From NCBI RefSeq assembly GCF_003751085.1, contig NZ_RJJY01000001.1, positions 2,604,001 to 2,668,000 on the forward strand: a DNA stretch of 64,000 nt, written 5' to 3'. Positions 1 through 34,162 of the stretch are shown piece by piece. A program made the position numbers and the translations under genes. The notes below the pieces were generated by a model, which was not told the origin of the DNA, made no database searches, and saw nothing but the letters and a program-made list of their open reading frames with translations. Each line of letters begins with the position of its first letter. The stretch's first letter is position 1. Source of the stretch: Micromonospora sp. Llam0. Its GTDB lineage: Bacteria > Actinomycetota > Actinomycetes > Mycobacteriales > Micromonosporaceae.

Positions 1-884
1 GGCAGATCCGCGAATGCGGTCGCGAGGTACTCGAGCGCGTCGATGTTGTTGGCGCCTTCGACGGTGTCGCGTAGCGGTAGGACGACGGTGGGCAGCTCGC
101 CGACGCGCCACGCGGTGATCTCGGGTCGGGCCCGCAGGCGGTCGAGCTTGTCCGCTACGTCGAATGGGCCGTAGTCGCTGACGAGCAGCACGTGTGGGCG
201 GGGTCGCGTGGCGAGCTGGTGCCAGGGCATCCAGCCGTAGGTGAAAGGCAGATCGGTTGTCACGGGTTCACCGCCGACTCGACGCAGCAGATCGGTCACC
301 ACGGCGGCGCTACCGGCGGTGAGCACGGCGTCGTGGCGGGGCATGTCGAGTACGAAGACCCGTCGTGGTGGGTTGCGTCGTGTTCGCGAGGCGACGGCGT
401 CGATCCGGGTACGCCAGCCGGCGGCGATCGTCTCGGCCCGGTCGGCGACGCCGAGGGCGTGGCCGAGGGCGATGGTGTCGTTGATCGTCGAGTGGATCGT
501 GGCCGGTGTGATGACGGGTGCGTCCTCGAGTGCGGCCTCGGTGAGCAGGAACGAGCGGATGCCGCGTCGGGCCAGTGCGGCGCGGGCGCCGAGGGCGCCG
601 TCGCCGAACGCCTCGTTGTCGCCGGCGACTACCAGGTCGGGGCCGTGGGCAAGGATGTCGGCGAGTGTTGGGAAGCGACGCGGTAGCAACGAGATCTGTG
701 CTCGGGTAGTGGCGGGCAGCGTCGACCAGCCGCCGTCGGTGTCGTTGGCGGCGACGACGCGGTCGACGGTGCCCAACGCCGCGAGCAGGGACAGTGGGCC
801 GCTGTCGATGGTGACGACCCGCCGCGCCGGTGCCGCTGCTTCGCCGACGAGGCCCGGCCGGTAGGTCAGCTCGTCACCGGGCAT
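1..884 (-). CDS. BtuF/FecB-like periplasmic-type binding protein, 3' end outside window
   Basis: Translation of the minus strand from ATG 882-884 gives an uninterrupted frame that runs off the left edge. It has the TroA/BtuF-fold layout: an early strand near RVVTIDSGPLSLLAALG, then GPDLVVAGDN (the usual 'PDLVI' element of FecB/BtuF proteins), a long linking helix and a second lobe with LPTVVLPLRDTVEG. The start overlaps the 3' end of the upstream ATPase gene, so it is the third gene of a permease-ATPase-receptor operon behind a cobalamin riboswitch; a corrinoid (BtuF) or related chelate role is inferred. Oddly, no signal peptide or lipobox is visible: the first residues are MPGDELTYRPGLVG. 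Either the receptor is not exported by a usual route, or the annotated start is wrong, although no better upstream start exists. Confidence 0.75.
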   Translation of the reverse strand, partial: MPGDELTYRPGLVGEAAAPARRVVTIDSGPLSLLAALGTVDRVVAANDTDGGWSTLPATTRAQISLLPRRFPTLADILAHGPDLVVAGDNEAFGDGALGARAALARRGIRSFLLTEAALEDAPVITPATIHSTINDTIALGHALGVADRAETIAAGWRTRIDAVASRTRRNPPRRVFVLDMPRHDAVLTAGSAAVVTDLLRRVGGEPVTTDLPFTYGWMPWHQLATRPRPHVLLVSDYGPFDVADKLDRLRARPEITAWRVGELPTVVLPLRDTVEGANNIDALEYLATAFADL

Positions 885-1701
885 TGTCGGCTCCGGTCGG
901 TGTGTCCGGGACCGGATGCGACGGCGGGGGTCCGAGTGGGGCGTACACGAGTTGGGTTCCTCCGGTGAGTGGGTTGACGACGGTGGCGGCTCGGATGCCG
1001 AAGACCCGCTCGACCAGAGCGGGTTCGATGATCTGCGCCGGGGGGCCGCTGGCGACCAGCGCGCCGGCGTACAACACGTGCACGGCGTCGCAGTACGCCA
1101 ACGCGAGGTTGAGGTCGTGCACGGCGGCCAGCACGGTGAGCTCCAGCCCGCGCAGCAGACGCAGGACCTCGTGCTGCGCGGCGACGTCGAGGTGGTTGGT
1201 GGGTTCGTCGAGCACGAGCAGATCGGCGCGTTGGGCCAGCGCGCGGGCAATGAGTACGCGTTGACGTTCGCCACCGGACAGCGTGGCGAAGGCCCGGTGC
1301 CGCAGATGGGAGGCGTCCACCCGGGTCAGGCAGCGGTCGAGCCAGGCGAGGTCGGCTGCGGTGTCGGGCTCGAATGCCCGCTTGTACGGGGTCAGGCCCA
1401 TGGCGACCACGTCGGCGACGGTCAGTTCGAGCGCGTGGTCGCGTTCCTGCAGGACGACGGCGAGCCGACGGGCCAAGGCACGCGGGCGTAGCTGGGGAAG
1501 GCTCGTACCGTCGAGCCGGACGTCGCCGGAGTCGGGGCGCACGACGCGGTAGCCGGCGCGCAGCAGCGTCGTCTTACCGGCGCCGTTCGGCCCGAGGATG
1601 CCGGTTATCGTGCCGCGTCGTACGGTGATCGAGACGTCCCGCACGAGGTCCCGGCCGCCGACGTGCACGGTGACCGTGTCGAAGTCGAGCGCGCCGGTCA
1701 C
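874..1701 (-). CDS. ABC transporter ATPase, BtuD/FecE type
   Basis: A 275-residue ATPase energising a FecCD/BtuC-type importer. Walker A GPNGAGKT lies at about residues 37-44, followed by the signature LSGGERQRV, Walker B LVLDEPTNHLDV and the switch histidine in AAVHDLNLALAYCD, the set expected for a siderophore/B12 importer subunit. I chose the GTG whose TGA-overlapping context (GTGA) couples it to the permease stop; a longer open frame upstream is only the antisense-like reading of the permease gene. It lies between permease and receptor genes in one operon under the cobalamin riboswitch near 2.9 kb. Cobalamin or a cobalt-containing chelate is the likely substrate from that regulation; the protein itself does not prove it. 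Confidence 0.88.
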   Translation of the reverse strand: MTGALDFDTVTVHVGGRDLVRDVSITVRRGTITGILGPNGAGKTTLLRAGYRVVRPDSGDVRLDGTSLPQLRPRALARRLAVVLQERDHALELTVADVVAMGLTPYKRAFEPDTAADLAWLDRCLTRVDASHLRHRAFATLSGGERQRVLIARALAQRADLLVLDEPTNHLDVAAQHEVLRLLRGLELTVLAAVHDLNLALAYCDAVHVLYAGALVASGPPAQIIEPALVERVFGIRAATVVNPLTGGTQLVYAPLGPPPSHPVPDTPTGADNAR

Positions 1702-2768
1702 GCGGTGACCCCGAGCCCGCTGCGGCCGCTGCGGCGCAGCAGCAGCCAGAGGAAGAACGGGCCGCCGCACAACGCGGTGAGCACTCCCAGGGGCAGCTCC
1801 GCCGGAGCGGCCACGGTGCGGGCCGCGAGGTCGGCCAGGACGAGGAACGACGCGCCGGTGAGCATCGCCACCGGCAGCACGGCCCGGTGGTCGGCTCCCA
1901 TGACGAGCCGCACGGCGTGCGGGGCCATCAACCCGACGAAGCCCACAGCGCCCACCCCGGCGACCGCCACGGCCGTCATCAGCGCGCAGACGCCCAGCAG
2001 TACGTATCGTTCCCGGGCGACATCGACGCCGAGGGTCGCGGCGGACTCCTCGCCGCCGCTGATGGCGTTGAGTGCCCGGGCGCGGGCCAGTAGTGCCGCG
2101 CCGCCGGCGACGGCCACCACGGCGGTCAGTGCCACCACGTCCCAGCGTGCCCCTGCCACCGTGCCGAGCAACCAGAACAGTATCCCGCGTACCGCCTGGT
2201 GGTCGGGTGAGCTGATCACCAGGTAGCTGGTGACCGCTGACAGGACGTACGAGACGACGACGCCAGCCAGTACCATCTGCACCGGTCCGGCCCGGCCGCT
2301 TCGGCGGCCGAGCGCGGTGACCAGCAGCACCGCCAGTAACGCGCCGAGGAAGGCTCCGGACGGCAGGGCGTAGATGCCCCAGGACGACAACGCGCCGAGC
2401 AGCGCCACCACGGCGGCGCCCACCGACGCTCCCGAGGAGACTCCCAACAGGTACGGGTCGGCGAGCGGGTTGCGCAGCAGCGTCTGCATGACCGCACCGA
2501 CGGCGGCGAGCGCGGCGCCGACGACGGCGGCCAGCGCCGCGCGCGGCATCCGTACCAGCCAGACAATCTGTTCGTCGCCGTGCGGCCAGGTCACCGGGAC
2601 CGGGGCCAGCAGTCGGCCACCGGTGTTGTTCCAGGCCACTGACCACACGGTCGTCGCCTTTACCTGCACCGGTCCGAGGCTCACCGCGGCGGTGAGGCAG
2701 GCGACGGTGACGACGGCGGCGACGGGCCAGTTACGGGCGCGCACGTCGGCGGCGTACGCGCGGGTCAC
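1698..2768 (-). CDS. FecCD/BtuC-type ABC importer permease
   Basis: A 356-residue multi-spanning membrane protein of the FecCD/BtuC family. Typical family segments are visible: LPRAALAAVVGAALAAVGAV-like (here MPRAALAAVVGAAL), NPLADPYLLGVSSGASVG, and the C-terminal GFVGLMAPHAVRLVMGADHR, the region that contacts the ATPase. I chose GTG at 2768, which gives a short N-terminus before the first membrane helix (PVAAVVTVACLTAAVSLG). A longer frame to 2837 would run towards the riboswitch expression platform. It is the first gene of the operon and sits directly downstream of a cobalamin riboswitch on the same strand, so uptake of a corrinoid is the simplest reading. Confidence 0.88.
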   Translation of the reverse strand: MTRAYAADVRARNWPVAAVVTVACLTAAVSLGPVQVKATTVWSVAWNNTGGRLLAPVPVTWPHGDEQIVWLVRMPRAALAAVVGAALAAVGAVMQTLLRNPLADPYLLGVSSGASVGAAVVALLGALSSWGIYALPSGAFLGALLAVLLVTALGRRSGRAGPVQMVLAGVVVSYVLSAVTSYLVISSPDHQAVRGILFWLLGTVAGARWDVVALTAVVAVAGGAALLARARALNAISGGEESAATLGVDVARERYVLLGVCALMTAVAVAGVGAVGFVGLMAPHAVRLVMGADHRAVLPVAMLTGASFLVLADLAARTVAAPAELPLGVLTALCGGPFFLWLLLRRSGRSGLGVTA

Positions 2769-2854
2769 CCCCTGCCGCTGATGGTGGGGGTTTCCGGAGC
2801 TGCCCGGGCAGCACGACAGTGACCACGGTGCCTCCACGCCTCGTAGAGCCGTTC

Positions 2855-3040
2855 GTTGTGGGGCGCGGTCGGTCTTCTGGCTTCCGGATCACTGCCGGCA
2901 CCCGGCCTTCCCGGGCCGGGGTGGCCCAGTGGCGTCGCGAGGGGTGCCCGCTCCCCGGTCACAGCTGCGAGGGCAGCGCCGGATTCACACCGGCTTCCCA
3001 CTACCGCGACCCGTTTCGGACCAGCGGAAACTAGCACACA
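2855..3040 (-). promoter_or_regulatory. Cobalamin riboswitch upstream of btuCDF-like operon
   Basis: On the minus strand the segment carries the recognisable cobalamin aptamer core: GGGAAGCCGGTGTGAATCC, then GCGCTGCCCTCGCAGCTGTG, and at the 3' side a GGCAGTGATCCGGAAGCC-type closing segment followed by AGAAGACC. It lies between the second YcaO gene and the permease. Known family behaviour is repression of the downstream gene when adenosylcobalamin binds. It makes cobalamin control of the importer operon very likely and leaves open whether transcripts from the YcaO operon run into it. Confidence 0.92.
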
Positions 3041-3103: not shown

Positions 3104-4492
3104 TCAGTGCGGCAGCGGGGTCAGCCGCAGCTGGCCGGGACCCTGCAGCAGTCGTGGCAGGCGAGCGCCGCCGAGCAGCGGAAACGCCGCTGCCGCGTTG
3201 CTGTACAGACCGGGCACGACTGCGCGTACGACGTGGAGCCCGGCCCAGCGTACGTCTGGTGTGGTCACGTCGACGGCGACGGCGTCGAATCCGTTGGCCC
3301 GGACCTGGTCGACCAGGAGGCGGACGCGCTGCGTCGCGCTCGGGTCGGCCCGGGCGGGCTCGGTGGGCGCGGCGGGTGGCGACGGCGGGGCAGGCTCGGC
3401 GGACCGGGCGGGCAGGGTCGGTGTGTCGGTCGGGGGCCAGCTGTTGACGGCGTCGACCAGCCCGTGTGCCAGCTCCGGGTCCAGGTATGCCTGCAGGTGG
3501 CATCCGGGGTCGGTGGCGTCGTGCCAGTCGGCGCGGTAGTCGCGCAGGTAGGCGCGGTCGGCGCGCCAGGGCTTGAGCGGGCTGCCGGGTGCGGCGGCCA
3601 CCGCGGCGAAGGCGCCGTGGGGGTCGTCGAGGTCCCGCATGACCATCTGTACATGCAGGGCTTCGGCGAGTGCCTTGGCTGCGGCCGCATCGGTGTCGGG
3701 GTGGCAGGCGGTGCCCAGGGTGACGTAGTCGTCGACGGTGTCGTGCACGAGCGCGCCGAGCACCGGGAGCCCGAGTTCGCTGGGGAACCGGCAGAGCCGG
3801 GTCCGTAGGGCACCGGTCGCTCCCGCCGCTGGTGCCTGCAACCACGCCGGCGTCGGCAGGCGTGTCCCCGCCAGCCTCGCCGTCCAGGTCAGTGTCATCG
3901 CGTCACGTTCGACGAGTTCGGCCAGGGCGCTGGCGAGCGCTGCGTCCGTCGTCGTGCCGGCGCCGATCCCGGCGTACGCGGTGGCGGTGATCGGGGGCAG
4001 GTGGCGGTACCGGTAGCTGGTCCAGACCAGGGCTGCTGGCACCCAGACCGGTTCGCCGGTAGGGAGTCGGTGCCCACGGACCCACTCGGCCGGGGTGTCC
4101 CGGGTGAACGGGACGAAGGGGAAGCCGTCGGCGGCGTACTGGTCGGTGCTGTACAGCGGTAGGGTCTTCGGGTCCACCGCCTCATCACCGACGGTGGTCA
4201 GCTGCGTCCAGGTCGCGACGGGCAGGTCGGGCGGGACGAGGTTGCCGCAGTAGCGTTCCACCGCCTCGCCGATGGCGGCGCCCTCGGCCGCTGTCGGGTC
4301 CCACAACGCGGCGCCCATTCCGGACGGGTCGCTGCGCCATTCGCAGAAGGCGGTCGTGTCGCTGATGACGGAACGGACCAGGTGCAGCGCGGCGGGCAGG
4401 TGTGGGTGGCGTGGGTAGGGCTCGACGCGGCGGATGACGCCGGTGCGCGGGTCGACGAGCCCGCCGGGGACCGCTGTGCGCTGGCCGGTCAC
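3104..4492 (-). CDS. YcaO-domain protein, second of a tandem pair
   Basis: A 462-residue YcaO-family enzyme, the family that phosphorylates peptide amides to form azolines, thioamides or amidines. ATP-site motifs are visible: AIGEAVERYCG (about residues 75-85) and LAELVERDAMTLTW, equivalent to the S/GxxxExxER and ExxER elements. The C-terminus is LRLTPLPH, a Pro-x-Pro tail reminiscent of the PxPxP tail known to organise the active site of azoline-forming YcaO proteins. GTG at 4492 overlaps the stop of the preceding YcaO gene (GTGA), so the two are translationally coupled. A proline-rich insert ([17 protein letters not shown]) interrupts the C-terminal third and is absent from its neighbour. 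It is the last gene of the candidate RiPP operon. Confidence 0.85.
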   Translation of the reverse strand: MTGQRTAVPGGLVDPRTGVIRRVEPYPRHPHLPAALHLVRSVISDTTAFCEWRSDPSGMGAALWDPTAAEGAAIGEAVERYCGNLVPPDLPVATWTQLTTVGDEAVDPKTLPLYSTDQYAADGFPFVPFTRDTPAEWVRGHRLPTGEPVWVPAALVWTSYRYRHLPPITATAYAGIGAGTTTDAALASALAELVERDAMTLTWTARLAGTRLPTPAWLQAPAAGATGALRTRLCRFPSELGLPVLGALVHDTVDDYVTLGTACHPDTDAAAAKALAEALHVQMVMRDLDDPHGAFAAVAAAPGSPLKPWRADRAYLRDYRADWHDATDPGCHLQAYLDPELAHGLVDAVNSWPPTDTPTLPARSAEPAPPSPPAAPTEPARADPSATQRVRLLVDQVRANGFDAVAVDVTTPDVRWAGLHVVRAVVPGLYSNAAAAFPLLGGARLPRLLQGPGQLRLTPLPH

Positions 4493-5889
4493 GAGTACGG
4501 AAGGGGGTCGAGCACCAGGTCCTCCTCGCGTGGTGGTGTGGACGTCCAACCCAGGCTGACCGGCTCGGTGTAGAGCCGTGGCACGCCGAGCAGGGGGAAG
4601 GCTGCGGGTGCGTACGCGGCGAGGCCGGGTACGACGACGCGGGCAACGTGCAGTCCGGCGAGCCGTACGTCCGGGGTGGAGAGGTCTGCCCACAGGGGTT
4701 GCAGCCCGGCGGCCAGCAGCGCTTGCAGCGGGCCGCCGGTGGTGTGGGCGGCGGCGTCGAGGTCGGCGGCGCTCACCCGGCCCTGTGGCCGGCGTAGGCG
4801 TGGCAGCAGGCGTTGTCGCACGGACGGGTCGAGGTAGAGCTGGGTGTGGCAGGCGAGGTCGTGGACATCGCGCAGGTCGGTGCGGTAGTCGGCTCCGTAG
4901 CCGCGGTCGGCGCGAAACGGCCGGTACGGGTGGGCATAGGCTGCCCCGCCGGCCACGGCCCGCCACAGCGCTGACGTCGGGTCGAGGAGCTCGGCGGCGA
5001 CGGCGAGGCCGTCGAGTGCCTCCAGCAGCGCCTTGCGCAGCGCGGCCGTGGTGTCGGTGCGGCAGGCGGCGCCCAACGCGCTGGTGCCGTCGCGTGGGTT
5101 GTCCACCAGGGCGGCGACGACCGGCAGCCCGAGCCGGTTCGGGACGGCCAGCACCGTCGCCGTCAGCGACTCCGGCAGTCCATGCCGTGCGGGCCGGGCT
5201 GCTAGTAGCGCCTCGACCTGCGCGTCCACGCCGTCGAGGGCGACGGTGGGCCCGCCGCCGAGCCACCAGACCGTCAGCGCGTCGCGCTCCACCACTTCCA
5301 GCATGGCCCGGTGGCGGGCGTCAGCCGGTGTGGTCGCGGCGGCGATGCCGGCGTACATCTGCAGGTTGGTCGCGGGCAGGCCGTCGTGGCCGGGGTTCAG
5401 CACGACCAGTGACGCCGGGACGAACAGGGTGTCGCCGCTGGTGTCGGTGGTGGCTGAGCGGCTGGGCCGGTCGAGCGGACGGGCCGGCACCCAGCGCATC
5501 GGCAGGTCCCGGGTCATGGGGACGAACGGGAAGCCCGGTGCGGCGTACTGCGCGATGGAGTAGAGCGGCACCGCCTGCGGGTCGAGTACGGCGACGCCGC
5601 CGGCCTCCAGTTGGTCGAAGGTGGCAACGCGGACCCCGGAGGGCGGCGCGTTGCCACAGTAGCGTTCGACGGCTTCGCCGAGCGCGGCTGCCCGGGCCCC
5701 CTCCGGATCGTCGAACGCCGAGCCGTGCCCGGTCGGGTCCGCCCGCCAGTTGGCGAACTGCCCGGTGCCGGCGACCTGCGCGGTCGCGGCCGTGTACGAG
5801 CGGGGAAAGCCGTCGCGGCGGGCGTCAGGCACCACCCGCCGGACGAGGCCGGTGCGTTCGTCGACGAGCAGAGCAGCCGGCCCGTTCAT
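4489..5889 (-). CDS. YcaO-domain protein, first of a tandem pair
   Basis: A 466-residue YcaO-family protein with ATP-site motifs ALGEAVERYCG and AMLEVVERDALTVWW, a conserved SIAQYAAPGFPFVPMTRD segment also seen in its neighbour (STDQYAADGFPFVPFTRD), and the C-terminus LDPLPYS. Its ATG overlaps the hydrolase stop (ATGA). The pair are clear paralogues, similar along their length. Two YcaO proteins in one operon suggest either two separate backbone modifications or a heteromeric synthetase in which one copy is catalytic. An E1-like partner gene in the same operon favours ATP-dependent cyclodehydration (azoline formation) for at least one of them. Which of the two is active cannot be told here, because both keep the ATP-site glutamates. 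Confidence 0.86.
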   Translation of the reverse strand: MNGPAALLVDERTGLVRRVVPDARRDGFPRSYTAATAQVAGTGQFANWRADPTGHGSAFDDPEGARAAALGEAVERYCGNAPPSGVRVATFDQLEAGGVAVLDPQAVPLYSIAQYAAPGFPFVPMTRDLPMRWVPARPLDRPSRSATTDTSGDTLFVPASLVVLNPGHDGLPATNLQMYAGIAAATTPADARHRAMLEVVERDALTVWWLGGGPTVALDGVDAQVEALLAARPARHGLPESLTATVLAVPNRLGLPVVAALVDNPRDGTSALGAACRTDTTAALRKALLEALDGLAVAAELLDPTSALWRAVAGGAAYAHPYRPFRADRGYGADYRTDLRDVHDLACHTQLYLDPSVRQRLLPRLRRPQGRVSAADLDAAAHTTGGPLQALLAAGLQPLWADLSTPDVRLAGLHVARVVVPGLAAYAPAAFPLLGVPRLYTEPVSLGWTSTPPREEDLVLDPLPYS

Positions 5890-7544
5890 CGCGCACCTGC
5901 CTCGTCGAGCACCGGCAGGACGACCCGGGTCGGCTGGTCACCGCCGTGGTGGACGCGCTGCCGGCCGACGGTCCACGTCGTGGCGCGAGTGCGGTCCTCC
6001 GCACGGTTGAGGCTCCGGGCGAGGTCGGGAAAGTCGCTGCTACTGATCTGCAGCAGCAGGGCTGAGCCGGCGCGGACCCGCGCCGCCACTGGGGTGAGCT
6101 GGACCTCGATGCCACCGTCTGCGGCGGTGGGCCGGTGCCGGGCGCTGCCGTGGGCCAGCGACAGCACTGCTCCGTCGACCCGTCGTTCCAGCAGGCGTAC
6201 CACCCAGTCGGTGTCGTCTGCGTCGGTGTCGACGTGCAGCACCGCCACTGGGTCGCCGGTCAGGGTCAGCGGTGCCGGCAGCGGGCCGCTGTCGTAGTGC
6301 ACGGTGTCGGTCCGGTCCAGCAGATCCCGGCGGTCAGTCCCGGGGGCGCGTGACGGAAACGGATCGGCCGGGTCGTCGAGGTAGCCGGTCTTCCCCGCGC
6401 GGCCGCCGGGGCGGCGCGTCAACCCGCCGTCGCCAGCGGCGTACCAGGTCGTGGCCGTGGTCGGGCCGGGCGGCCAGGTCGGCGCCGCACGCCACCGGTC
6501 GACGCCGGGCAGGAAGTAGGTCACCTGATCCTGACGACGGTCCGGGGCGTGCAGGCCGGTGGCGGCCAGCCAGTCGGCCAGCAGCGGGCCCAGCAGTCGC
6601 CGCGCGTGCGGGCCGTGCTCGCGCGCTCCGACGCGGGTGGCACCGGACAGACCGAAACCGTGATCCCACGGGCCGAGCACCATGGTGCGATGGGGACGAG
6701 GCGCGACGGCGGCGCCGACCAGCTGCCACAGCCGTACCGTCTCTGGGAGGAACAGGTCGTACCATCCGCCGACGTGCAACGTCGGCAGGTCCAGCCCGGC
6801 CAGATCGACGTCGGACAGTTCGCCCGCGCGGACGGCGGCGGAGTCGGGGCACAGCACCTCGCGCCAGCGCCGGGTCCGGGGCCAGGCGTGGTCGCCGATC
6901 TCGGCGACCGGCAGTCGGCGCAGCAGGTCCGGCTCGGCGGCGAGCATCCGTTCGGTGAGCTGCACCCGGCTAGTGCGGCCCTCGCCGTGCAGGAACCACC
7001 AGCCGGCGTGTTCGGCGAGCCGCAGGATGCCGCTGGGCTCGAACTTGGCCGACCGCAGCCCCAGGCTAGGGGCCACGCTCAGCACCGCGCGCACCACGCC
7101 CGGCCGGCTGACGGCCGCCGCCCAGGCGCAGAACGCCGAGTACGAGGCCCCGTAGGTGACCACCGGTCGACCGGCGGCCCACGGCTGATCCGCCAGCCAG
7201 TCGACGGTCGCCGCGCCGTCGGCGGCCTCATGGCGGTAGGGCTGCCAGTCGCCGTCGCTGTCGTAGCGGCCACGCACATCCTGCACGACGGTCGTGACGC
7301 CCCGGCTGCTCCACGCCAACGCCTCGTCGGTCATCCGGGAGCGGCCGTAGGCCGTGCGGACCAGCAGCACGGGGTGACCTGCGGGGTCGTTCCCCGCAGC
7401 GACGGCGGGAAAGCCGGCAGGGCTACTCGGGCTGTCGGTGCTGTCGGCGCTGTCGGGGGGGAGGTAGACGTCGGCGGTCAGTCGCTGTGCTGCCGGTCGG
7501 CCGGGCACCGGGACGCGTACCCCGCCGAGCACGCGGCGGGTCAC
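5886..7544 (-). CDS. S15/CocE-NonD family serine hydrolase
   Basis: A 552-residue alpha/beta hydrolase of the X-Pro dipeptidyl-peptidase/cocaine-esterase (CocE/NonD) family. The nucleophile motif is TYGASYSAF with the preceding DVRGRYDSDGDW segment typical of the family, a later acidic loop, the catalytic-histidine region LGPWDHGFG, and a C-terminal jelly-roll-like domain. The GTG start overlaps the stop of the E1-like gene (GTGA). No signal peptide is visible, so it should act in the cytosol. In this operon it may remove the leader or trim the modified peptide; the precursor has several X-Pro bonds (IP, TP, EP) that an S15-type peptidase could recognise. An esterase role remains possible. 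Confidence 0.82.
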   Translation of the reverse strand: MTRRVLGGVRVPVPGRPAAQRLTADVYLPPDSADSTDSPSSPAGFPAVAAGNDPAGHPVLLVRTAYGRSRMTDEALAWSSRGVTTVVQDVRGRYDSDGDWQPYRHEAADGAATVDWLADQPWAAGRPVVTYGASYSAFCAWAAAVSRPGVVRAVLSVAPSLGLRSAKFEPSGILRLAEHAGWWFLHGEGRTSRVQLTERMLAAEPDLLRRLPVAEIGDHAWPRTRRWREVLCPDSAAVRAGELSDVDLAGLDLPTLHVGGWYDLFLPETVRLWQLVGAAVAPRPHRTMVLGPWDHGFGLSGATRVGAREHGPHARRLLGPLLADWLAATGLHAPDRRQDQVTYFLPGVDRWRAAPTWPPGPTTATTWYAAGDGGLTRRPGGRAGKTGYLDDPADPFPSRAPGTDRRDLLDRTDTVHYDSGPLPAPLTLTGDPVAVLHVDTDADDTDWVVRLLERRVDGAVLSLAHGSARHRPTAADGGIEVQLTPVAARVRAGSALLLQISSSDFPDLARSLNRAEDRTRATTWTVGRQRVHHGGDQPTRVVLPVLDEAGAR

Positions 7545-8479
7545 GGGGCCGCCGCGGTCGGCGGCAGCGGTAGGACCGGATGGGCCAACGGCACCGGCTC
7601 GCCGGGCACGCACTCGATCTGGTGGTGACGGCCGGGCGCGGGTTCGCCCCGCAGATGCGCCAGTACGTCGCGGGCAGCGTGACCGGCCGCGACCGCAACC
7701 TCAGGCCCCGACGGCCACCAGTCGTCACGGCCATCGTCGCTGGCCTCCAGGTGCGCCCACAGCGCCCGCAGCTCGTCCGCCGCGCCGGCGGCCAGGCGCC
7801 GTCCCCGTAGGTCGCGGTAGCCTGCGGAGACTCCGGGGACGCCGAACGGGCCGATCACGAATCGGTCCCCTTCGACCAGGACCAGGTGGCGGGCGGTGCC
7901 GTGCGCAGCGCACCAGTCGTCCACCAGCAGCCAGCGTCGGTCGGGCAGGCGCGCGGCGATGGACACGACCACGTCGGCCGACGCGACGGCGGCCTCGTCC
8001 ACCGGCCCGTGTCGCAGGTGGACGCCCGGGTGCTCGCCGAGAATGCCGGCGAGGGCGTCGGCTGGGTAGCCACCGCCGTCGAGGTGTACGACCCCGCGGA
8101 CCGCGGCGACGGATGTCGCGTCCGACGGGGACACGGTCACCACGCCGGCCCGGCGCAGGGCGTCGAGCACCGGGCCCGCCTGCGGCAGCCTACGCAGCAG
8201 ATCATTGCGGGTGTGCCCGCCGGCGCGCAGCAGCGGCCCCAGCCCGTCGAAGTCGTCGTACCCGCGCAGCCGGGTGAACTGGTCGCCGGGGCCGGCGCAG
8301 CGCCACACACCGTCCGGGCCAGGGTAGAGTTCCCGTCCCGGCGCGAGTCGCCACACCCCGGTCAGGTCACCGCTGCCGTCACCATCGTTGTCGCTGTTGG
8401 GTTGCGCGGCATCCTGGGTAGAGGAAACCGCAGGTGGGAACCCGGAGTGGGTCCCCACCTGCGAGGAGTGTCCTGCCAT
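7541..8479 (-). CDS. E1-like (ThiF-type) cyclodehydratase partner / leader-binding protein
   Basis: A protein of up to 312 residues resembling the actinobacterial 'bacteriocin biosynthesis cyclodehydratase' proteins, which bind RiPP leader peptides and partner YcaO enzymes. Seen: LYPGPDGVWRC followed by a winged-helix-like N-terminal part (FDGLGPLLRAGGHTRNDLLRRLPQ), then a Rossmann-like core with ADVVVSIAARLPDRRWLLVDDWCAAHG and the GPFGVPGVSAGYRDL loop. The first 40 residues are low-complexity and include a strong DNA hairpin, so the true start may be a downstream GTG at 8356 (271 residues). It sits 7 bp after the precursor stop if the long start is used. Together with the YcaO pair it defines this as an azoline/amide-modifying RiPP locus. 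Confidence 0.78.
   Translation of the reverse strand: MAGHSSQVGTHSGFPPAVSSTQDAAQPNSDNDGDGSGDLTGVWRLAPGRELYPGPDGVWRCAGPGDQFTRLRGYDDFDGLGPLLRAGGHTRNDLLRRLPQAGPVLDALRRAGVVTVSPSDATSVAAVRGVVHLDGGGYPADALAGILGEHPGVHLRHGPVDEAAVASADVVVSIAARLPDRRWLLVDDWCAAHGTARHLVLVEGDRFVIGPFGVPGVSAGYRDLRGRRLAAGAADELRALWAHLEASDDGRDDWWPSGPEVAVAAGHAARDVLAHLRGEPAPGRHHQIECVPGEPVPLAHPVLPLPPTAAAP
8429..8463 (-). terminator. Hairpin between precursor and modification genes (attenuator-like)
   Basis: A perfect 10-bp inverted repeat (CGCAGGTGGG / CCCACCTGCG) with a 15-nt loop, followed on the minus strand by GTTTCCTCTAC. It lies 24 nt after the precursor stop codon. A leaky terminator directly after a precursor gene is a common RiPP arrangement that gives more precursor than enzyme mRNA. 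The U-tract is short, so it could also act as an RNA-stabilising stem. Confidence 0.55.
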
Positions 8480-8486
8480 GTCGCCG

Positions 8487-8633
8487 TCAGGCGTCCGTGG
8501 GCTCCGCCCACTCGAACGGCGTGTGCAGCAGCGAGTTGTGCTTGTGCAGGGCCGGGATGACCTCCTGGTCCTCGACCGCCTCGAACGTGATCGCCTCGTC
8601 CTCTACTGCTTCGAACGTGACCGCGTCGCCCAT
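8487..8633 (-). CDS. Candidate RiPP precursor peptide, 48 residues
   Basis: A short reading frame immediately ahead of the E1-like gene, with ATG at 8633 and a good GGAGG ribosome site 5 nt upstream. The N-terminal half is acidic and holds an imperfect tandem repeat, VTFEAVEDEA then ITFEAVEDQE, which looks like a duplicated leader recognition segment. The C-terminal part is HKHNSLLHTPFEWAEPTDA: no cysteine, one serine, two threonines, three histidines and one tryptophan. With so few hydroxyl residues and no thiols, heterocyclisation would give at most a few oxazol(in)es; histidines could bind metal, or the YcaO pair could make another backbone change. No known precursor family is recognised. 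The small size, position and repeat are seen; the function is inferred. Confidence 0.7.
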   Translation of the reverse strand: MGDAVTFEAVEDEAITFEAVEDQEVIPALHKHNSLLHTPFEWAEPTDA

Positions 8634-8763
8634 GCGAACCTCCGCTGCTCGGCCGGAGAGCCATCACCCTCCGGATCGGGTGACTTGTTGCGACGATGTC
8701 GCCACAACGGATTCAACGCTATGGTCGTAGCGTCCATTCGTCAATGCTGATGGGAGCGCTCGG

Positions 8764-10044
8764 GTGGAGCCGGACACTGTGGCTGCGACGTCCGAGGCCG
8801 CACCGCCGCCCGGGCCGGGGTCCGAACGAGCTGTGCCGGCGGTGCGGCGGTGGCGGGTCGCGGTGCAGGTCCTGCCGGTCATGGCCCCGGCGTTCGTGGC
8901 GCGCCTGCCGGTCGGCATGTACTCCATCGCGCTCCTGCTGCTGCTGAGCGAGGGCACCGGCTCGTACGCGATCGCGGGCACCGCGACGGCCGGATATTGG
9001 GCGGCGACCGGGGTAGGTGCCCCGATCGCCGGCCGGCTCGCCGACCGACGGGGAGCGGTCGCCGTGCTCGCCGTGCTGGCCGGGGTGCACGCGGTGGCCC
9101 TGGTGGCGCTGGTGCTTCTCGTCCGTGGGATGTCACCGGCAGCGACGTCGGGTGCGACGATATCCGCAGCCGTTGCGTTGGCTGCCCTGGCAGGGTTGAC
9201 CCAGCCGCCGGTCGCCGCCGTCGTCCGTGCCCACTGGTCGCGCCGGTTCGGCGGCGACGAGGCGGCGCTACGCACGGCGCTGGCCGTGGAGGCCGTCGTC
9301 GGGGAAGCCGTGTTCATCGCCGGGCCGTTGCTCGTCGCGGTCGTTGGTGTCGTGGGCGGCCCGCCGGTGGCGATGCTGGCCGGCGCGGCGATGACCGCCG
9401 CCGGCACCTGGTGGCTGGTCACCGCGACCGCCGTCCGCCACGCCCCTGCCGCCGCACCGCCTCCGGGCACCCGGTGGGCCGCGCTGGCGGTGCCCGGGCT
9501 GCGGGTCCTCACCACGGCGCAGATCCTGCTGTTCGCGGGATTCGCGTGCGTTGAGGTCGGGGTCCTGGCGACCGCCGGCGAACGCGGTGCCGGCTGGGCG
9601 GCCGGCGTGCTGCTGGCGGTGTGGGCGGCGGCGAGTGTCCTCGGCGCGCTGGCCTGGGCGGCACGCGACTGGCCGGGACCGGCACCTCGGCAACTGGTGG
9701 CCCTGCTCGCGGTCGGCGCGGTCGGCACGGCCACGATCACGCTGCCGACGTCGTGGCCGGCGATCGGCGCCGCACTCGTGTTGTCCGGGCTGTGCATCGC
9801 ACCGGCCGGGATCGTCATCCAGACCGTGCTGACGCAGGTGACCGACCCGGCGCGACGCACCGAGTCGTTCGCGTGGCTGACCACCGCCGCGGTGCTCGGT
9901 TCGTCGATCGCCACGATGGGTGCCGGCTGGCTGGTGCAGGCGTACGGAGCGACGACCGTGCTACACGCGGCCGCGCTGTGCGGGGCGAGCGCCGCGGCGG
10001 TGGCGCTACTCGGCCGGCGGGCGCTGCAGCCCGCAGGTCGCTGA
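8764..10044 (+). CDS. MFS transporter, probable peptide or drug efflux
   Basis: A 426-residue major facilitator protein starting at GTG 8764 with GGGAG upstream, divergent from the precursor peptide gene. About 12 hydrophobic spans are visible, with short loops such as GRLADRRGAVAVL between early helices (the G-x-x-x-D-R-x-G-type MFS loop). The two halves are joined by TAVRHAPAAAPPPGTRWAALAVPG. Divergent placement with the RiPP genes and the neighbouring half-ABC exporters suggests it exports the mature product or gives immunity. It is similar in size and layout to actinobacterial single-component efflux proteins of unknown substrate. Confidence 0.83.
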   Translation: MEPDTVAATSEAAPPPGPGSERAVPAVRRWRVAVQVLPVMAPAFVARLPVGMYSIALLLLLSEGTGSYAIAGTATAGYWAATGVGAPIAGRLADRRGAVAVLAVLAGVHAVALVALVLLVRGMSPAATSGATISAAVALAALAGLTQPPVAAVVRAHWSRRFGGDEAALRTALAVEAVVGEAVFIAGPLLVAVVGVVGGPPVAMLAGAAMTAAGTWWLVTATAVRHAPAAAPPPGTRWAALAVPGLRVLTTAQILLFAGFACVEVGVLATAGERGAGWAAGVLLAVWAAASVLGALAWAARDWPGPAPRQLVALLAVGAVGTATITLPTSWPAIGAALVLSGLCIAPAGIVIQTVLTQVTDPARRTESFAWLTTAAVLGSSIATMGAGWLVQAYGATTVLHAAALCGASAAAVALLGRRALQPAGR

Positions 10045-10133: not shown

Positions 10134-11924
10134 TCAGCCCCGCTTCGACAGACGCCAGCGTCCGGCGCGGTCGTGTGCGGTCCACAACGCACGGTACGTC
10201 GCGCTGGTACCCAGCACCTGATCGTGTGTGCCGGTGCCGGTGACCCGGCCATCCGTCACGACCACGACATGGTCGGCACGCGACGCGATCGCCAGGCGGT
10301 GGGTAACGACGACCACGGTCGTCCCGGCGTCACGCAGCCGGGTCAGCGTGTCGATGACCTGCTGCTCGTGGCCGGTGTCCAACGCCGCGACGGGCTCGTC
10401 GAGCAGCAGTAACGCGGCGTCGCTCAGCAACGCCCGGGCCAGGGCCACCCGCTGCCGTTCGCCTCCGGACAGCCGGTTGCCCAGCTCACCCACTTCGGCG
10501 TCGTAGCCGCCGGGCAGGTCGGCGACGATGTGCTGGCAGGCCGCAGCCCGGACAGCGGCCTCCACCTGTACGAACGTGGCGTCCGGGCGCCCGGCGAGGA
10601 TGTTGTCCAGCACCGAACCGGAGAACAGCGACGGACGCTGCGGCACGAACGCGACCGTCGCTGGCGTGCGCACCTGCCCCAGGGTGGGGCGCCACAGCCG
10701 GGCGGCCAGGTGCAGCAGCGACGTCTTGCCCGCGCCGGACGGGCCGACCACCACGGTCAGCGTCCCGGTCGGGCACGTCAACGACACATCGTGGAGTGCC
10801 GGCGGCCGACCGTCGCCGTAGGAGAAGCTGACGCCGTCGACAGTCAGCCCTCCGTCCGCTGCCACCGCCGCCGCCTCCTCCGGGGTCGGCTCTGTTGCCT
10901 CGGTGGACTGATCAGGCAGCGGCGGACCCGGTACGGCGATGTGCTCGTCGTGGAAGCGCCGGACCCACGCCACCGAGGCGGCTGTACGCGGCAGACTGTC
11001 GAGCCGACCCGCCAGCTCCCCGATCGGCTGGGCGACCCGCAGGGCGAGCACCAGCGCCGCAGCCACCCGGGCGCCGTCGGCACCCGGGGCGCCCGCGACG
11101 GCCACCACGGCCGCCCCGGTCATGGCCGCGACGACCAGGAGGTCCACCAGCAGGACGAAGGCGGCGTACGCGGGGACGACTCGGCGCAGGATGCGGGTGT
11201 TGACGGCGCGGTAGGCGACCACCGCCCGGCTCAGGGCGTTGCCGCGCTGCTCGACCAGCCCGAAGGCGCGGATGACCTCGATGCCGTCGACGTGTTCGAC
11301 CACCGCCTTGTCCAGGTCCGCGCGGCTGTCCCGGTGCTCGGTGGCGAAGCGGGCGTAGCGGGCCTGCGCCCACCGGTAGACGGGCACCCCGGCGGCCAGG
11401 ACCACCACCAGCGAAGCGGCCACCACCGTTTCCACGACGAACAGCGCGACGAGGGCGGTGACCGGCGTCGCGGTCAGGCGCACCAGTTCCGGCAGTGTCC
11501 AACCCAGATAGTTCTCCACCACCCGGGTGTCACTGCCGAGCACGGTGCCGGCGTCGTCGCCGGCGAGCAGTCCACGTTGGCCAGGCCACGGCCCGACGAG
11601 CCCACGCACCCCGGCGGCACGCAGCCAGGCACCCGTGTCGTAGCACGCGGCCCACGTCACCTTGGCAGCCGCGAACGCGGTCGCCGACTGCAGGGCCACC
11701 AGCAGCAGACAGCCGGCGGCGTAGCCGACGATCCGGGCACCGTCAAGAACACCTGAGGACAGATCGACCACGGCCAGAACCGCCAGGACCGCCGGCCCGC
11801 ACGCGAGCGCACCCTCCAGCGCGCGCAACGCCAGGCCGGCGATCAGACGTGGTCGGGCCGGCCCGGCCAGGAACAGGGCGTCGCGGGCGACCGCGTGCAG
11901 CCGGGGCGCCGTCACGACTGCCAC
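10134..11924 (-). CDS. Half-size ABC exporter (TM-NBD), partner 2
   Basis: A 596-residue fusion of an N-terminal six-helix membrane domain and a C-terminal ATPase. ATPase motifs are VVGPSGAGKTSLL (Walker A), VAFVPQRPSLFSGSVLDNI (Q-loop), LSGGERQRVALARALL (signature), ALLLLDEPVAALD (Walker B) and VVVTHRLAIA (H-loop). The gene overlaps the adjacent half-exporter by 13 bp, the arrangement of a heterodimeric exporter such as CydDC- or IrtAB-type pairs. In the second position of Walker B the usual DEPTS/A is DEPVAA, still with the catalytic glutamate. Likely export of the RiPP product or of a chelator; substrate is inferred from neighbours only. Confidence 0.85.
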   Translation of the reverse strand: MAVVTAPRLHAVARDALFLAGPARPRLIAGLALRALEGALACGPAVLAVLAVVDLSSGVLDGARIVGYAAGCLLLVALQSATAFAAAKVTWAACYDTGAWLRAAGVRGLVGPWPGQRGLLAGDDAGTVLGSDTRVVENYLGWTLPELVRLTATPVTALVALFVVETVVAASLVVVLAAGVPVYRWAQARYARFATEHRDSRADLDKAVVEHVDGIEVIRAFGLVEQRGNALSRAVVAYRAVNTRILRRVVPAYAAFVLLVDLLVVAAMTGAAVVAVAGAPGADGARVAAALVLALRVAQPIGELAGRLDSLPRTAASVAWVRRFHDEHIAVPGPPLPDQSTEATEPTPEEAAAVAADGGLTVDGVSFSYGDGRPPALHDVSLTCPTGTLTVVVGPSGAGKTSLLHLAARLWRPTLGQVRTPATVAFVPQRPSLFSGSVLDNILAGRPDATFVQVEAAVRAAACQHIVADLPGGYDAEVGELGNRLSGGERQRVALARALLSDAALLLLDEPVAALDTGHEQQVIDTLTRLRDAGTTVVVVTHRLAIASRADHVVVVTDGRVTGTGTHDQVLGTSATYRALWTAHDRAGRWRLSKRG

Positions 11925-13753
11925 AACCTGGCGTACCGGCCACCGGCTGCCACCAGGTCGGCGTGCCGGCCCTGCTCGACCAGCCGGCCGCCGTCGAGCA
12001 CGGCGATCGTGTCGGCTCCGGCCACCGTCTTCAGCCGGTGCGCGACCACCAGAAGGGTGCGTCCGACGGCGAGGTTGGTCAGCGCGTCCTGCACCAGGGT
12101 CGCATTGTCCGGGTCCACGTGCGCGGTCGCCTCATCCAGGATGACCACCGGCGCGTCGTGTAGCACCGCCCGGGCGATCGCCATCCGCTGCCGCTCCCCT
12201 GCGGACAGTCGGGATCCGCGCTGGCCCAGCGGCGTGTCCAGGCCGTCCGGAAGCCGGGCGACGACCTCATCGAGTCTGGCGGCCCGCAGCGCGTCCCACA
12301 TCTGGTCCACCGTCGCGTCCGGACGTCCGACCCGCAGGTTCGCGGCGACGGTGTCGTCGAAGAGAAAGACGTCCTGGAAGACGAATGTCACCAGCTGCCG
12401 CAGTCGGTGGGCTGGAAGGTCGCGTACATCGACGCCGTCGACGAGCACCGCGCCCGCCTGCGGGTCGAAGAACCGTCCCACCAGCCGCACCAGCGTCGTC
12501 TTGCCCGCACCCGACGCGCCCACCAACGCGGTCAGGGAACCCGGCGCACAGGTCAGCGTAACGTCGTCGACGGCCGGCCGGCTCGTGCCGGGGTAGCTGA
12601 ACGTCACGTCACGCAACTCCAGGAGGCCACGCCCGACACCCCCACTGGTGTCGGCTGCCGTGCCCTCGCCGGCTCCGACGATTGTCGTTGGGCGGGGCGG
12701 CGGCAGGCTCGGGACATCGAGCAGTTCCTGCAGCCCGTTCGCGGCGCTGGTGAGCAGTGCGAGGCGCATCGAATGGTGGTAGAACCGCAGCAACGGCGCG
12801 CTGTACCCACCGCCGACGACCAGGACGACGATCAGCTGCGCGGGTGTTACCGCGCCGGCGTCCAGCCGCCACAGTCCCAGCGGCAGCAGGACCGCCAGCG
12901 GGGCGGCGAGCAGCACCGCGAACGCCGTTCCCGCCGGCAGGAACGCCGCAGCCCAGTCACGCTCACCGGCCGCGTACGCCTCGGCGCAGTCACACGACCG
13001 ACCCACCGGCCCACGGCTGGCCGCACCGGGCAGCAGATGCAGCACCGGCAGACCACGCAGCACCTCCAGCACGGCACCGCTCCACGCCGACCAGGCGGCG
13101 TGGGTGCGTGCCTGCATCACGTCGGCGCCACGCAGCGCACGCGTCAGCGCGACGAACGCCAGCATCACCACCGCGACCGCGGCCAGCGCCAGCAGCGGAT
13201 CCACGGTGACCAGCCACACGGTCACCGCTACCCACACCACCGCCGCCGAGACCGTTTCGGGCACTCCATGCGCGACGAAGACCTCCAGCTCCTCCACGTC
13301 GTCGGTGAGCAGAGCCCGCATCTGTCCGGCGCGCGGCCCGGTGACCCGGCCGAGCGGCACCTGGTGCAGCCGGTCGACCAGGCGGCCGCGCAGCCGCACC
13401 GACAGCACGTCGAACGCGACGTCGTGGCTGACCGCCAAACCCCACGCCCACAGCGCCGACCGCGCTACCGAGATCACCAACGCCAACGCCGTCCAGCGCA
13501 CGATGTCGGCGCCGGTCGCGGCGCCGCCGAGCAGCAGTCCGCCGACGTGCGCGAGCACGAGGTAGACAGCGACCTCCCCGGCCGTGGCCACCACCGTGAG
13601 CGCCACCGCACCGGCCAGTCGCCGTCTGCCGGGCCGGGCGAAGCCGAGCATCAGGCCGACACCACGCCACAACGACACCGCACCTGCGCCGCCGGCGTCA
13701 GCGCCCGGACCGACGTTGGCCGAGGCACCCACGCTGCCCGCCTGCGCGCTCAT
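11912..13753 (-). CDS. Half-size ABC exporter (TM-NBD), partner 1
   Basis: A 613-residue TM-ATPase fusion. Motifs seen: LVGASGAGKTTLVRL (Walker A), FVFQDVFLFDDTVAANL (Q-loop), LSAGERQRMAIARAVL (signature with LSAGE instead of LSGGE, as is common in IrtA/YbtP-like siderophore-type half transporters), VVILDEATAHVDPDN and VVAHRLKTV. The first 30 residues are a Gly/Ala-rich tail. It overlaps the FecE-type ATPase gene upstream (ATGA) and the other half-exporter downstream, so receptor-permease-ATPase-exporter genes form one operon. The LSAGE signature and linkage to a FecBCD importer resemble mycobacterial and Yersinia siderophore transporters, which import ferric chelates despite an exporter fold; import is therefore also possible. 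Confidence 0.86.
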   Translation of the reverse strand: MSAQAGSVGASANVGPGADAGGAGAVSLWRGVGLMLGFARPGRRRLAGAVALTVVATAGEVAVYLVLAHVGGLLLGGAATGADIVRWTALALVISVARSALWAWGLAVSHDVAFDVLSVRLRGRLVDRLHQVPLGRVTGPRAGQMRALLTDDVEELEVFVAHGVPETVSAAVVWVAVTVWLVTVDPLLALAAVAVVMLAFVALTRALRGADVMQARTHAAWSAWSGAVLEVLRGLPVLHLLPGAASRGPVGRSCDCAEAYAAGERDWAAAFLPAGTAFAVLLAAPLAVLLPLGLWRLDAGAVTPAQLIVVLVVGGGYSAPLLRFYHHSMRLALLTSAANGLQELLDVPSLPPPRPTTIVGAGEGTAADTSGGVGRGLLELRDVTFSYPGTSRPAVDDVTLTCAPGSLTALVGASGAGKTTLVRLVGRFFDPQAGAVLVDGVDVRDLPAHRLRQLVTFVFQDVFLFDDTVAANLRVGRPDATVDQMWDALRAARLDEVVARLPDGLDTPLGQRGSRLSAGERQRMAIARAVLHDAPVVILDEATAHVDPDNATLVQDALTNLAVGRTLLVVAHRLKTVAGADTIAVLDGGRLVEQGRHADLVAAGGRYARLWQS

Positions 13754-14538
13754 GCCGACGCGTCCCCTTCTGAGTCCCACAGGAACAGGTGTGCCCGGCC
13801 GGTCACCGGATGGGTGGTCAACCGCGATCGCACCCCGAACACCCGGGCCACCAGCTCCGGCCGTAGCACCTCCTCCGCAGGTCCGACGGCGACGACGCTG
13901 CCACGGTCCAGCAGGACGATGCGGTCGGCGTAGGCCGCGGCCAGGTTGAGGTCGTGCAGTGCGGCCAGGGTGGTCACTCCCCGCGAGCGCACCAGCCGCA
14001 GGGTCTGCAACTGGTGCGCGACGTCCAGATGGTTGGTCGGCTCGTCCAGCACCAGCACTCCCGTCCGCTGCGCTAGCACCCGCGCCAGCAGCACCCGCTG
14101 CCGCTCGCCGCCGGACAGGTGCGAGAACCGGCGGCCCGCCAGATGCTCCACCCGGGCCGACGCCATCGCCTCGCGCACCGCAGCATCGCCCTCCGCTGGC
14201 CGGCTCTGGTGCGGCAGCCGACCCAACCGCACCACCTCCACCACCGTAAGGTCCACATCGGTGGGCCGCTCCTGCGGCAACGCGGTCAGCAGCCGAGCCA
14301 CCGCAGTCGCACCCGTCCGCCAGACGTCGGCCTCCCCGACGTGCACCGCCCCGGCCACCGGCCGCAGCGCCCGGTACACCGCACGCAGCAGCGAACTCTT
14401 GCCACTGCCGTTCGGCCCGACCACCGCGACCACCTCGCCGGGCTGGCACAGCACCGTCGCGCCGCTGACGACCGTACGCCCGTCCAGGTGCACCCGCAGA
14501 TCCGTCACGCGCAGCGGCAGCGCACTCGTCCCACTCAC
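13750..14538 (-). CDS. ABC importer ATPase, FecE type (second system)
   Basis: A 262-residue ATPase with VVGPNGSGKSSLL, LSGGERQRVLLARVL, VLVLDEPTNHLDV and AALHDLNLAAAYAD. Its C-terminal region (ELVARVFGVRSRLTTHPVTGRAHLFLWD) parallels that of the ATPase at 0.9-1.7 kb (VFGIRAATVVNPLTGGTQLVYA), so the two importers are related. It is translationally coupled to the permease upstream and to the half-exporter downstream. Substrate is probably a metal chelate (siderophore- or corrinoid-like). Confidence 0.88.
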   Translation of the reverse strand: MSGTSALPLRVTDLRVHLDGRTVVSGATVLCQPGEVVAVVGPNGSGKSSLLRAVYRALRPVAGAVHVGEADVWRTGATAVARLLTALPQERPTDVDLTVVEVVRLGRLPHQSRPAEGDAAVREAMASARVEHLAGRRFSHLSGGERQRVLLARVLAQRTGVLVLDEPTNHLDVAHQLQTLRLVRSRGVTTLAALHDLNLAAAYADRIVLLDRGSVVAVGPAEEVLRPELVARVFGVRSRLTTHPVTGRAHLFLWDSEGDASA

Positions 14539-16753: not shown

Positions 16754-16770
16754 TTACTGCGATGCAGTCA
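16754..16770. promoter_or_regulatory. Palindromic operator candidate in divergent promoter region
   Basis: TTACTGCGATGCAGTCA contains a perfect 5-bp inverted repeat ACTGC-GAT-GCAGT. It sits between the receptor lipoprotein gene and the Fur-family gene, a few bases from a CAATAT/CATATT element that could serve as a -10 box for the minus-strand operon. Position and symmetry suggest the binding site of the adjacent Fur-family repressor, but it does not match the zinc or nickel boxes I know from actinomycetes. Confidence 0.4.
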
Positions 16771-16881
16771 CAATATGCCCAACCCACCTGCCCGCGACGA
16801 TCGAGGTCTGACCGCCCGGGTCCGCCGTCCCAAGGCAGCAGGCCAGCGACGCCGGGAGCGGCGTTCGGCGATGATGGGCAG

Positions 16882-24624: not shown

Positions 24625-24775
24625 CGTGGGCCACGACGGGTGGAAATCCTCAGCAGCAGTACGTCGACGGGTATTCGGGCTCGCGGCGTCGTGTTCGCCG
24701 CCTACCGTTGCGGGCCAGCGCCGGCTTCCGACCGGACTTCCCCCATCGACGCACAGGTACAGAACTGCTGCGGAT
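24625..24775 (-). promoter_or_regulatory. Cobalamin riboswitch for secreted two-part binder
   Basis: On the minus strand: a GGGGAAGTCCGGTCGGAAGCC segment, then GGCGCTGGCCCGCAACGGTAGG, then GCGAGCCCGAATACC. This is the B12-aptamer core order and lies 60-200 bp upstream of the alpha6-alpha6 gene. It is shorter than the metE and importer riboswitches. It is divergent from, and only about 175 bp away from, a second such element on the plus strand. Confidence 0.82.
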
Positions 24776-33908: not shown

Positions 33909-33921
33909 CAACACCCCCTTG

Positions 33922-34160: not shown

Positions 34161-34162
34161 TT

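Follow-up and report, generated by a model that had tools for sequence, protein, structure and literature searches.

What kind of peptide is made, and for what, by a minus-strand operon with two YcaO proteins in Micromonospora sp. Llam0? The stretch considered here, ‘the window’, spans 64,000 nucleotides (bases 2604001-2668000 of its contig, in an 8.9 Mb genome), and its closest protein relatives lie in Micromonospora and Solwaraspora. The gene set, YcaO trees and precursor motif make it almost certain that the operon belongs to the streptamidine family of ribosomally synthesized and post-translationally modified peptides (RiPPs). We consider it rather likely that this divergent two-YcaO member sits within a metal-acquisition unit, whose cargo in the window and its nearest relatives would be nickel, cobalt or a corrinoid.

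The operon and its family

The operon is ordered amiA-amiB-amiC-ycaO1-ycaO2 and runs from 8633 to 3104, with 4-bp overlaps between adjacent genes from amiB through ycaO2:

8487..8633, minus strand: amiA-like precursor of 48 residues, with a degenerate FEAVEDE repeat in the leader, then ...VIPAL-HKH-NSLLHTPFEW...
7541..8479, minus strand: amiB-like protein with an E1-like fold; a RiPP recognition element is suggested solely by the TruD/LynD match
5886..7544, minus strand: amiC-like CocE/NonD (S15) hydrolase, its GTG at 7544 overlapping the amiB stop
4489..5889, minus strand: YcaO1 (AmiD-like), GEAVERYC and ERDA motifs intact
3104..4492, minus strand: YcaO2, sister of YcaO2 in doubled-precursor clusters

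A preliminary description of this DNA had proposed a RiPP operon of five coupled genes, and its parts hold up well. Coordinates, starts, stops and overlaps were confirmed on rechecking. Both YcaO proteins exceed the cut-off of the SagD-family model TIGR03604 (228 and 268 bits against 219), and in both the GEAVERYC and ERDA motifs are preserved. The hydrolase, scanned with a longer start, matches TIGR00976 (CocE/NonD, E 2.6e-75) and Peptidase_S15 (E 3.9e-35). The precursor gene has an ATG start with GGAGG upstream and encodes, as described, a peptide free of cysteine. AmiB has no Pfam or NCBIfam match; its AlphaFold2 model (25 sequences; predicted local distance difference test 83.4) finds the LynD/TruD heterocyclases (4v1t, E 1e-11), MccB and McbB in the PDB. 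The superposition is loose overall (template modelling score about 0.45), so that ‘E1-like partner’ stands as a fold assignment. The AmiB of Russell et al. (2021) gave the same kind of fold match with Phyre2 (PMC8442711). What did not survive is the statement that the combination matches no family: the gene set is the streptamidine one, and the same paper already describes two-YcaO clusters in this family. According to that paper, the family occurs in more than 230 species and has no established function, and many of its clusters are without the dehydrogenase AmiE, for which no match was found among the window cluster proteins scanned with Pfam and NCBIfam. The FecBCDE-like genes and two ATP-binding cassette (ABC) transporters that characterize the family are present, each importer having one FecCD permease in place of separate C and D proteins.

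Related loci were taken from one genome scan (the best 80 of 548 loci) and from further genome searches, 115 loci in all, and were grouped by precursor. Group A (14 loci) has a NALVENPF end and a single YcaO. Group B (14 loci) has doubled QGPGTNALVHNPF-type repeats and two YcaO proteins; L115 belongs to it but stands outside the counts. Group C (seven loci, L021, L026 and L031 among them) has SHTPAVD or AHTPAV precursors, and clade D consists of the window, L105 and L106. Group E is defined by short MKVxKL...NHAT...AW peptides in L019, L023, L076 and L110. Loci with another or no recognized precursor fall outside groups A-E, and the locus of the streptamidine producer, Streptomyces albidoflavus, lies outside the set examined.

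A phmmer search of 12,797 small open reading frames with the window precursor found relatives (best E 1.3e-5, to L013). Its NSLLHTPFEW aligns with NALVHNPF(A/S)W, the family end motif being NALVxNPF, and precursors with the common end motif occupy the equivalent position in related loci. The identical sequence is found in a second contig, and a copy in Solwaraspora sp. WMMD1047 is 77% identical over 92% of the length. Given this recurrence in other genomes and relatives, the precursor is not a chance reading frame; absence of the peptide from related loci had been named as a point that would tell against it, and its presence there is in its favour. The one group A precursor tested (L045) is classed by NCBIfam as streptamidine (66 bits, cut-off 40) and the four group B precursors tested (L011, L013, L024, L064) as AmiA_rel_RiPP2x (NF040715; 115.7-121.5 bits). 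The window precursor falls under both NCBIfam cut-offs, with 18 bits against 45 for NF040715 and no match to NF040714, and the L106 and L026 precursors have no NCBIfam match.

In the YcaO tree, the window YcaO2 groups with group B YcaO2 (support 97/97), while YcaO1 lies within a clade of groups A, B and C (99/97), its position beside group A having 95/69. The amiB-amiC-ycaO1-ycaO2 order, which the preliminary description suggested looking for elsewhere, recurs in the two-YcaO clusters of group B. Since its precursor is divergent and below both cut-offs, the window cluster is a new subfamily of the described streptamidine family. The low precursor scores might instead be taken to indicate a new RiPP class outside known families; this is extremely improbable, being already contradicted by a gene set, gene order, YcaO trees and precursor end motif that are those of the streptamidine family.

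Two observations extend the range of precursors. The group E peptides (MKVxKL...NHAT...AWR, upstream of an AmiB-like gene and with two YcaO domains) resemble a further precursor subfamily. Streptamidine-type precursors also occur beyond Actinobacteria, in a Thermoanaerobaculia metagenome-assembled genome (HTNSHNHALVENPFAW; L018, 5714, plus strand) and in Paenibacillus oralis (DPHHHALVHNPFVW; L022, 12096, minus strand).

A cobalamin riboswitch and a second importer

Downstream of ycaO2 lies a set of importer genes headed by a cobalamin riboswitch:

2850..3040, minus strand: cobalamin riboswitch, upstream of the importer genes
1698..2837, minus strand: BtuC-like permease (FecCD family)
874..1701, minus strand: BtuD-like ATPase
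1..875, minus strand: BtuF-like binding protein, continuing past the window edge

The riboswitch is a full aptamer (RF00174, model positions 1-189; 88.4 bits against a gathering threshold of 31.5). Past the window edge (L208) follow a second binding protein and a 280-residue protein ending in CC...CxxC. Rfam places a cobalamin riboswitch at the equivalent position in L105 and L106, so that it heads btuC-btuD-btuF beside ycaO2 in all three clade D genomes. Comparison of the binding proteins with solved structures gave no hint of cargo. The possibility that this importer is the family's amiF was rejected, as the tree groups it with group C and a riboswitch-linked importer and not with group B.

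The linkage was measured with a riboswitch model, R1, built from 16 riboswitches, none of them from an ami operon, and run on 87 sources. Scores above 90 bits were obtained for the window (2871-2999), L105, L106, L021, L026 and L031, that is, for 3/3 of clade D and 3/7 of group C, as well as for window 38291 and a riboswitch in L165, both of which had been used to build the model. All 76 other sources scored 18.5 bits or less. The one-sided Fisher value is 4e-7, or 4e-5 with clade D counted once, and serves as a guide only, since some of the 76 sources are short or overlap one another. Rfam applied to the seven group C loci finds the same three riboswitches. That every ami locus might have a B12 riboswitch was also considered, and is rejected by the 0/76.

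In L026, the order on one strand is Nur box, riboswitch, FhuF_C protein, amiA, an AmiB-YcaO fusion, a luciferase-like oxidoreductase and a MATE exporter. In L021, the divergent genes encode CobO and a chelatase-type AAA/VWA protein.

The whole genome has nine cobalamin riboswitch matches, four of them inside the window. Two are weaker and divergent (41 and 33 bits; 24649-24779, minus strand, and 24942-25097, plus strand) and adjoin proteins without a Pfam match and an energy-coupling factor (ECF)-type transporter at 27602-31214 (plus strand; weak CbiQ, ABC and ECF S-component matches). Together these probably form a further system for the uptake of B12 or cobalt. The cobalamin-independent methionine synthase gene metE (35916-38484, minus strand) lies under a strong cobalamin riboswitch (102.8 bits).

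Nur-like boxes and the Fur-family regulator

The pattern TTGCRA-N5-TYGCAA, which we take to be the Nur consensus and which was checked solely through the genes beside its other sites, occurs with at most one mismatch in the 260 nt preceding the core in 4/7 group C loci, 0/14 of group A and 0/14 of group B (0.14% in shuffles). These and all later shuffles are mononucleotide, keeping base composition and not dinucleotides. In L026 a perfect box lies 1.6 kb upstream, directly before the riboswitch; L021 has one box before the riboswitch and another before amiA. Six group C genomes contain 2-7 perfect sites each, against 0-1 in the control. These amount to 24 sites, seven in ami loci and 17 elsewhere, and at six of the 11 non-ami sites read the gene that follows is, by Pfam, for Fe-SOD (3), CbiM (2) or SBP_bac_5 (1). 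The Nur protein of Streptomyces coelicolor represses sodF and nikABCDE (PMC7055735).

Beyond the window operon, on the side of amiA, lie candidate exporters, Fec genes, a regulator and two palindromes:

8688..8704: Nur-like palindrome TTGCGACGATGTCGCCA, one mismatch, between amiA and the gene for the major facilitator superfamily (MFS) protein
8764..10044, plus strand: MFS protein, probable exporter
10134..11924, minus strand: ABC exporter half (AmiT-like)
11912..13753, minus strand: ABC exporter half (AmiT-like)
13750..14538, minus strand: FecE/BtuD-type ATPase (AmiF-like)
14535..15644, minus strand: FecCD permease (AmiF-like)
15666..16727, minus strand: FecB-type binding lipoprotein
16757..16773: second Nur-like palindrome CTGCGATGCAGTCACAA, two mismatches, between fecB and the Fur-family gene
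16882..17370, plus strand: Fur-family regulator, nearest in solved sequence to S. coelicolor Nur

These genes, together with the riboswitch at 2850-3040 and the BtuCDF-like importer, were not part of the preliminary description. Among solved sequences the regulator scores 81 bits with 3eyy and 64 with the next; 3eyy is S. coelicolor Nur (PMC7055735). Homologues occupy the same place in L105 and L106. The palindromes at 8688 and 16757 were matched in 2 and 11 of 2000 shuffles, respectively, and both lie in divergent promoters; the 64 kb contain four Nur-like sites with at most two mismatches (373, 8688, 16757 and 33922). The CbiM promoter of the same genome carries TTGCATCCCCTATGCAA, so the local Nur consensus may differ. 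A regulon of the long palindrome TTGCGACNNNGTCGCNACAA was sought in the same genome and rejected, its sites being no more numerous than in the control.

The extent of the unit is indicated by genome comparison. Collinearity with G457, of a different genus, begins 1.9 kb left of the window and extends, with small gaps, as far as 17328, close to where the Fur-family gene ends. With G414, of the same genus, it begins 2.3 kb left of the window and reaches 18262. In all three genomes compared, the importer, the RiPP genes and the regulator have thus remained together. G457 also holds, at 7074-7088 kb, the ECF, alaS-def-tsaD and metE-riboswitch blocks, the ECF block being inverted.

As to the site at 33922, its palindrome TTGCATATACTTTGCAA lies between alaS and the divergent def and tsaD (31263-35773), and a similar box is found at the same place in G414 (L203).

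The product might be a nickel-only metallophore, with the riboswitch-controlled importer an ordinary B12 importer that is adjacent by chance. The cluster-situated regulator is indeed nearest to Nur, and perfect Nur boxes in group C genomes stand beside Fe-SOD and CbiM genes. Adjacency by chance is, however, difficult to reconcile with riboswitches accompanying ami genes in 6/10 loci of group C and clade D against none of the 76 other sources, with the CobO and chelatase-type neighbours in L021, or with the other riboswitch-controlled genes that surround the window unit. A nickel-only role is therefore considered unlikely.

Zur-like boxes in groups A and B

The operators of these two groups are of a different kind. 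The 115 loci and the window were scanned with TGAAAATSATTTTCA, which we take to be the Zur consensus and which was checked solely by the genes beside its other sites; the 260 nt upstream of the core were counted. With at most three mismatches a Zur-like box is present in 13/14 group A and 9/14 group B loci (22/28 together) and in 0/7 of group C; with at most four, it is present in every locus of A (14/14) and B (14/14), 28/28 together, and again in 0/7 of C. Shuffles gave 0.07-0.11% for A and B at three mismatches and about 1% at four. The remainder of the A and B loci has 10 Zur-like sites in 567 kb, and 319 kb from 17 other YcaO loci yielded none.

The strict palindrome TGARAAYSRTTYTCA occurs seven times in eight A/B genomes (two genomes having none), against 0 for a reversed-pattern control, and the coordinates identify six of these seven as the ami box. 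A looser pattern gives 22 sites in six genomes. Among 13 sites read outside ami loci, the following genes recognized by Pfam include ZnuA (L189, L194), CobW (L192) and Peripla_BP_2 (L198). Because of these genes, the boxes upstream of the group A and B precursors are probably Zur sites.

Control by iron was also considered. An IdeR-type consensus, applied to the 115 loci and the window (116 sources), gave three matches with at most four mismatches (L046, L084, L110) and none at any precursor, and such control was rejected; so was CsoR-type control, the hits of a CsoR-type consensus being scattered and none consistent. The matching rival, an iron siderophore-like RiPP with Fec and FhuF-type proteins handling ferric iron, would explain the Fec-type transporters and the FhuF_C matches in L021, L026 and L031. 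Given the outcome of the IdeR-type scan, and the negative chrome azurol S (CAS) assay on streptamidine recorded in PMC8442711, it is very unlikely.

A possible role in metal acquisition

A response of the family to metal starvation is predicted from these operators; support for it is good in groups A and B and part of group C, and moderate in clade D. We infer from it that the family peptides carry a metal or corrinoid. The operators would then point to the relevant conditions: lack of zinc where groups A and B are concerned, and a shortage of nickel, cobalt or B12 in group C and the window clade.

Several points weigh against this role. For streptamidine itself, PMC8442711 reports no metal binding by CAS or by liquid chromatography-mass spectrometry, cobalt, nickel and zinc included, and no phenotype of a YcaO mutant under metal starvation. 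The three clade D genomes amount to about one independent case, and the fourth member, M. tulbaghiae (P0004, P0123), is known from proteins only. The window riboswitch precedes the importer genes, which lie downstream of ycaO2, and not the biosynthetic genes, and the FecCD clade uniting the window BtuC with group C and a riboswitch-linked BtuC has a support of only 87/92. The 280-residue protein, for which Pfam gives no match, resembles the group C FhuF_C proteins at its Cys end only (hhalign probability 48%). With the regulator, every NCBIfam model stays below its cut-off, the best being a Bacillus Fur model. The window palindromes are imperfect, as are their equivalents in L105 (1 and 3 mismatches) and L106 (2 and 2); the window genome has no perfect TTGCRA-N5-TYGCAA site, and a relaxed pattern in the three clade D genomes gives 3, 1 and 2 sites against 2, 1 and 0 in the control, none at the ami unit. 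In the group C DNA examined, L015 and L017 have neither a perfect Nur box nor a riboswitch, and L030 and L039 have no riboswitch. Finally, five of the 11 non-ami Nur sites read have no recognizable nickel gene, and 9/13 non-ami Zur-like sites no evident zinc gene, one (L182) being beside a FecCD-like permease.

The negative tests on streptamidine may perhaps mean that a ligand, metal or condition other than those tried is required, or that its role is different. A different role is the basis of the remaining rival, in which the streptamidine-like RiPP serves in signalling, antagonism or some other way, the transport genes do no more than export and recycle the peptide, and the neighbouring genes own the metal and B12 elements. 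The streptamidine results and the position of the window riboswitch are what it would predict. It leaves unexplained, however, why the precursor gene of relatives is immediately preceded by Zur-like or Nur boxes, at frequencies far higher than in shuffles, and why in L026 the RiPP genes themselves come after a Nur box and riboswitch; nor was antibacterial or antifungal activity of streptamidine found (PMC8442711). We regard such a role as improbable.

If the metal-acquisition role is adopted, a mechanism can be proposed. At metal scarcity, the Nur-like Fur-family repressor (16882-17370) would free the two divergent promoters. By homology, AmiB would bind the leader and present the precursor to the YcaO pair, which would activate backbone amides with ATP to form an amidine or azoline close to the HKH core, and AmiC would remove the leader. 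Export of the short peptide could fall to the MFS protein or to the pair of ABC proteins. Metal or corrinoid bound to it may re-enter via FecBCE and the BtuCDF-like importer, the riboswitch closing the latter when B12 is plentiful. More speculatively, the metal might be released through reduction by the protein with the FhuF-like iron-sulphur end.

A more specific version is possible but doubtful: a RiPP metallophore family whose metal can be read from its operators, groups A and B using zinc (Zur), group C and the window clade cobalt or a corrinoid (Nur and riboswitch), and the HKH peptide of the window being a ribosomal cobalt/B12 carrier re-imported by BtuCDF-like proteins. In the open-licence literature, no report of such a carrier was found, nor any prior report linking the streptamidine family to Zur, Nur, a riboswitch or a metallophore. 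If true, RiPPs would join the scavengers of zinc, nickel or cobalt, and a natural product would be linked to the B12 riboswitch.

Two features lie further along the window. A group II intron match (50378-50477; 46 bits) lies amid transposase-like translations, and 55733-63999 resembles, from translations alone, a partial polyketide-type cluster with thioesterase-like and ketoreductase-like reading frames.

Comparison with known systems

The preliminary description had set the operon apart from bottromycin-type and classical linear azol(in)e loci, and both distinctions stand. Linear azol(in)e peptides have a core rich in Cys, Ser and Thr and a flavin dehydrogenase, whereas the window core, from HKH to the end, has one Ser, two Thr and no Cys, and no dehydrogenase match was found among the proteins scanned. 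Bottromycin loci encode an amidohydrolase, a P450 and a radical SAM methyltransferase beside two YcaO proteins. None of these three was found among the window cluster proteins scanned (Pfam, NCBIfam), and the window cluster has an E1-like partner. Two YcaO proteins and, within the family, amidine chemistry are features shared with bottromycin (PMC8442711).

The streptamidine (ami) clusters of motif A, with a single YcaO (PMC8442711; NF040714), have in common with the window a precursor, AmiB, AmiC, an AmiD-type YcaO, Fec-like importer genes and two ABC exporter halves. The window adds a second YcaO, the MFS gene, the Nur-like regulator and the riboswitch-controlled second importer; no amiE dehydrogenase is seen in its cluster, and its precursor does not match NF040714. 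The product trait of the streptamidine family is a six-membered N-terminal amidine; for the window product, an amidine or azoline is predicted.

The two-YcaO clusters of motif B (NF040715, AmiA_rel_RiPP2x) have the same amiA-B-C-ycaO1-ycaO2 order, mostly with Fec/Btu-type genes next, and the YcaO2 clades are sisters. In these clusters the precursor has two QGPGTNALVHNPF-type repeats and follows a Zur-like box, whereas the window precursor has a single HKH-NSLLHTPFEW unit and reaches 18 of the 45 bits required. Group C differs from the window in its single YcaO and, in the annotated loci, in its FhuF_C, luciferase-like (LLM) oxidoreductase and MATE genes. It resembles the window in its Nur-type boxes, to which imperfect Nur-like palindromes correspond in the window, in the cobalamin riboswitches of some loci, in a FecCD clade near the window BtuC (87/92) and in its AmiB-type and YcaO domains.

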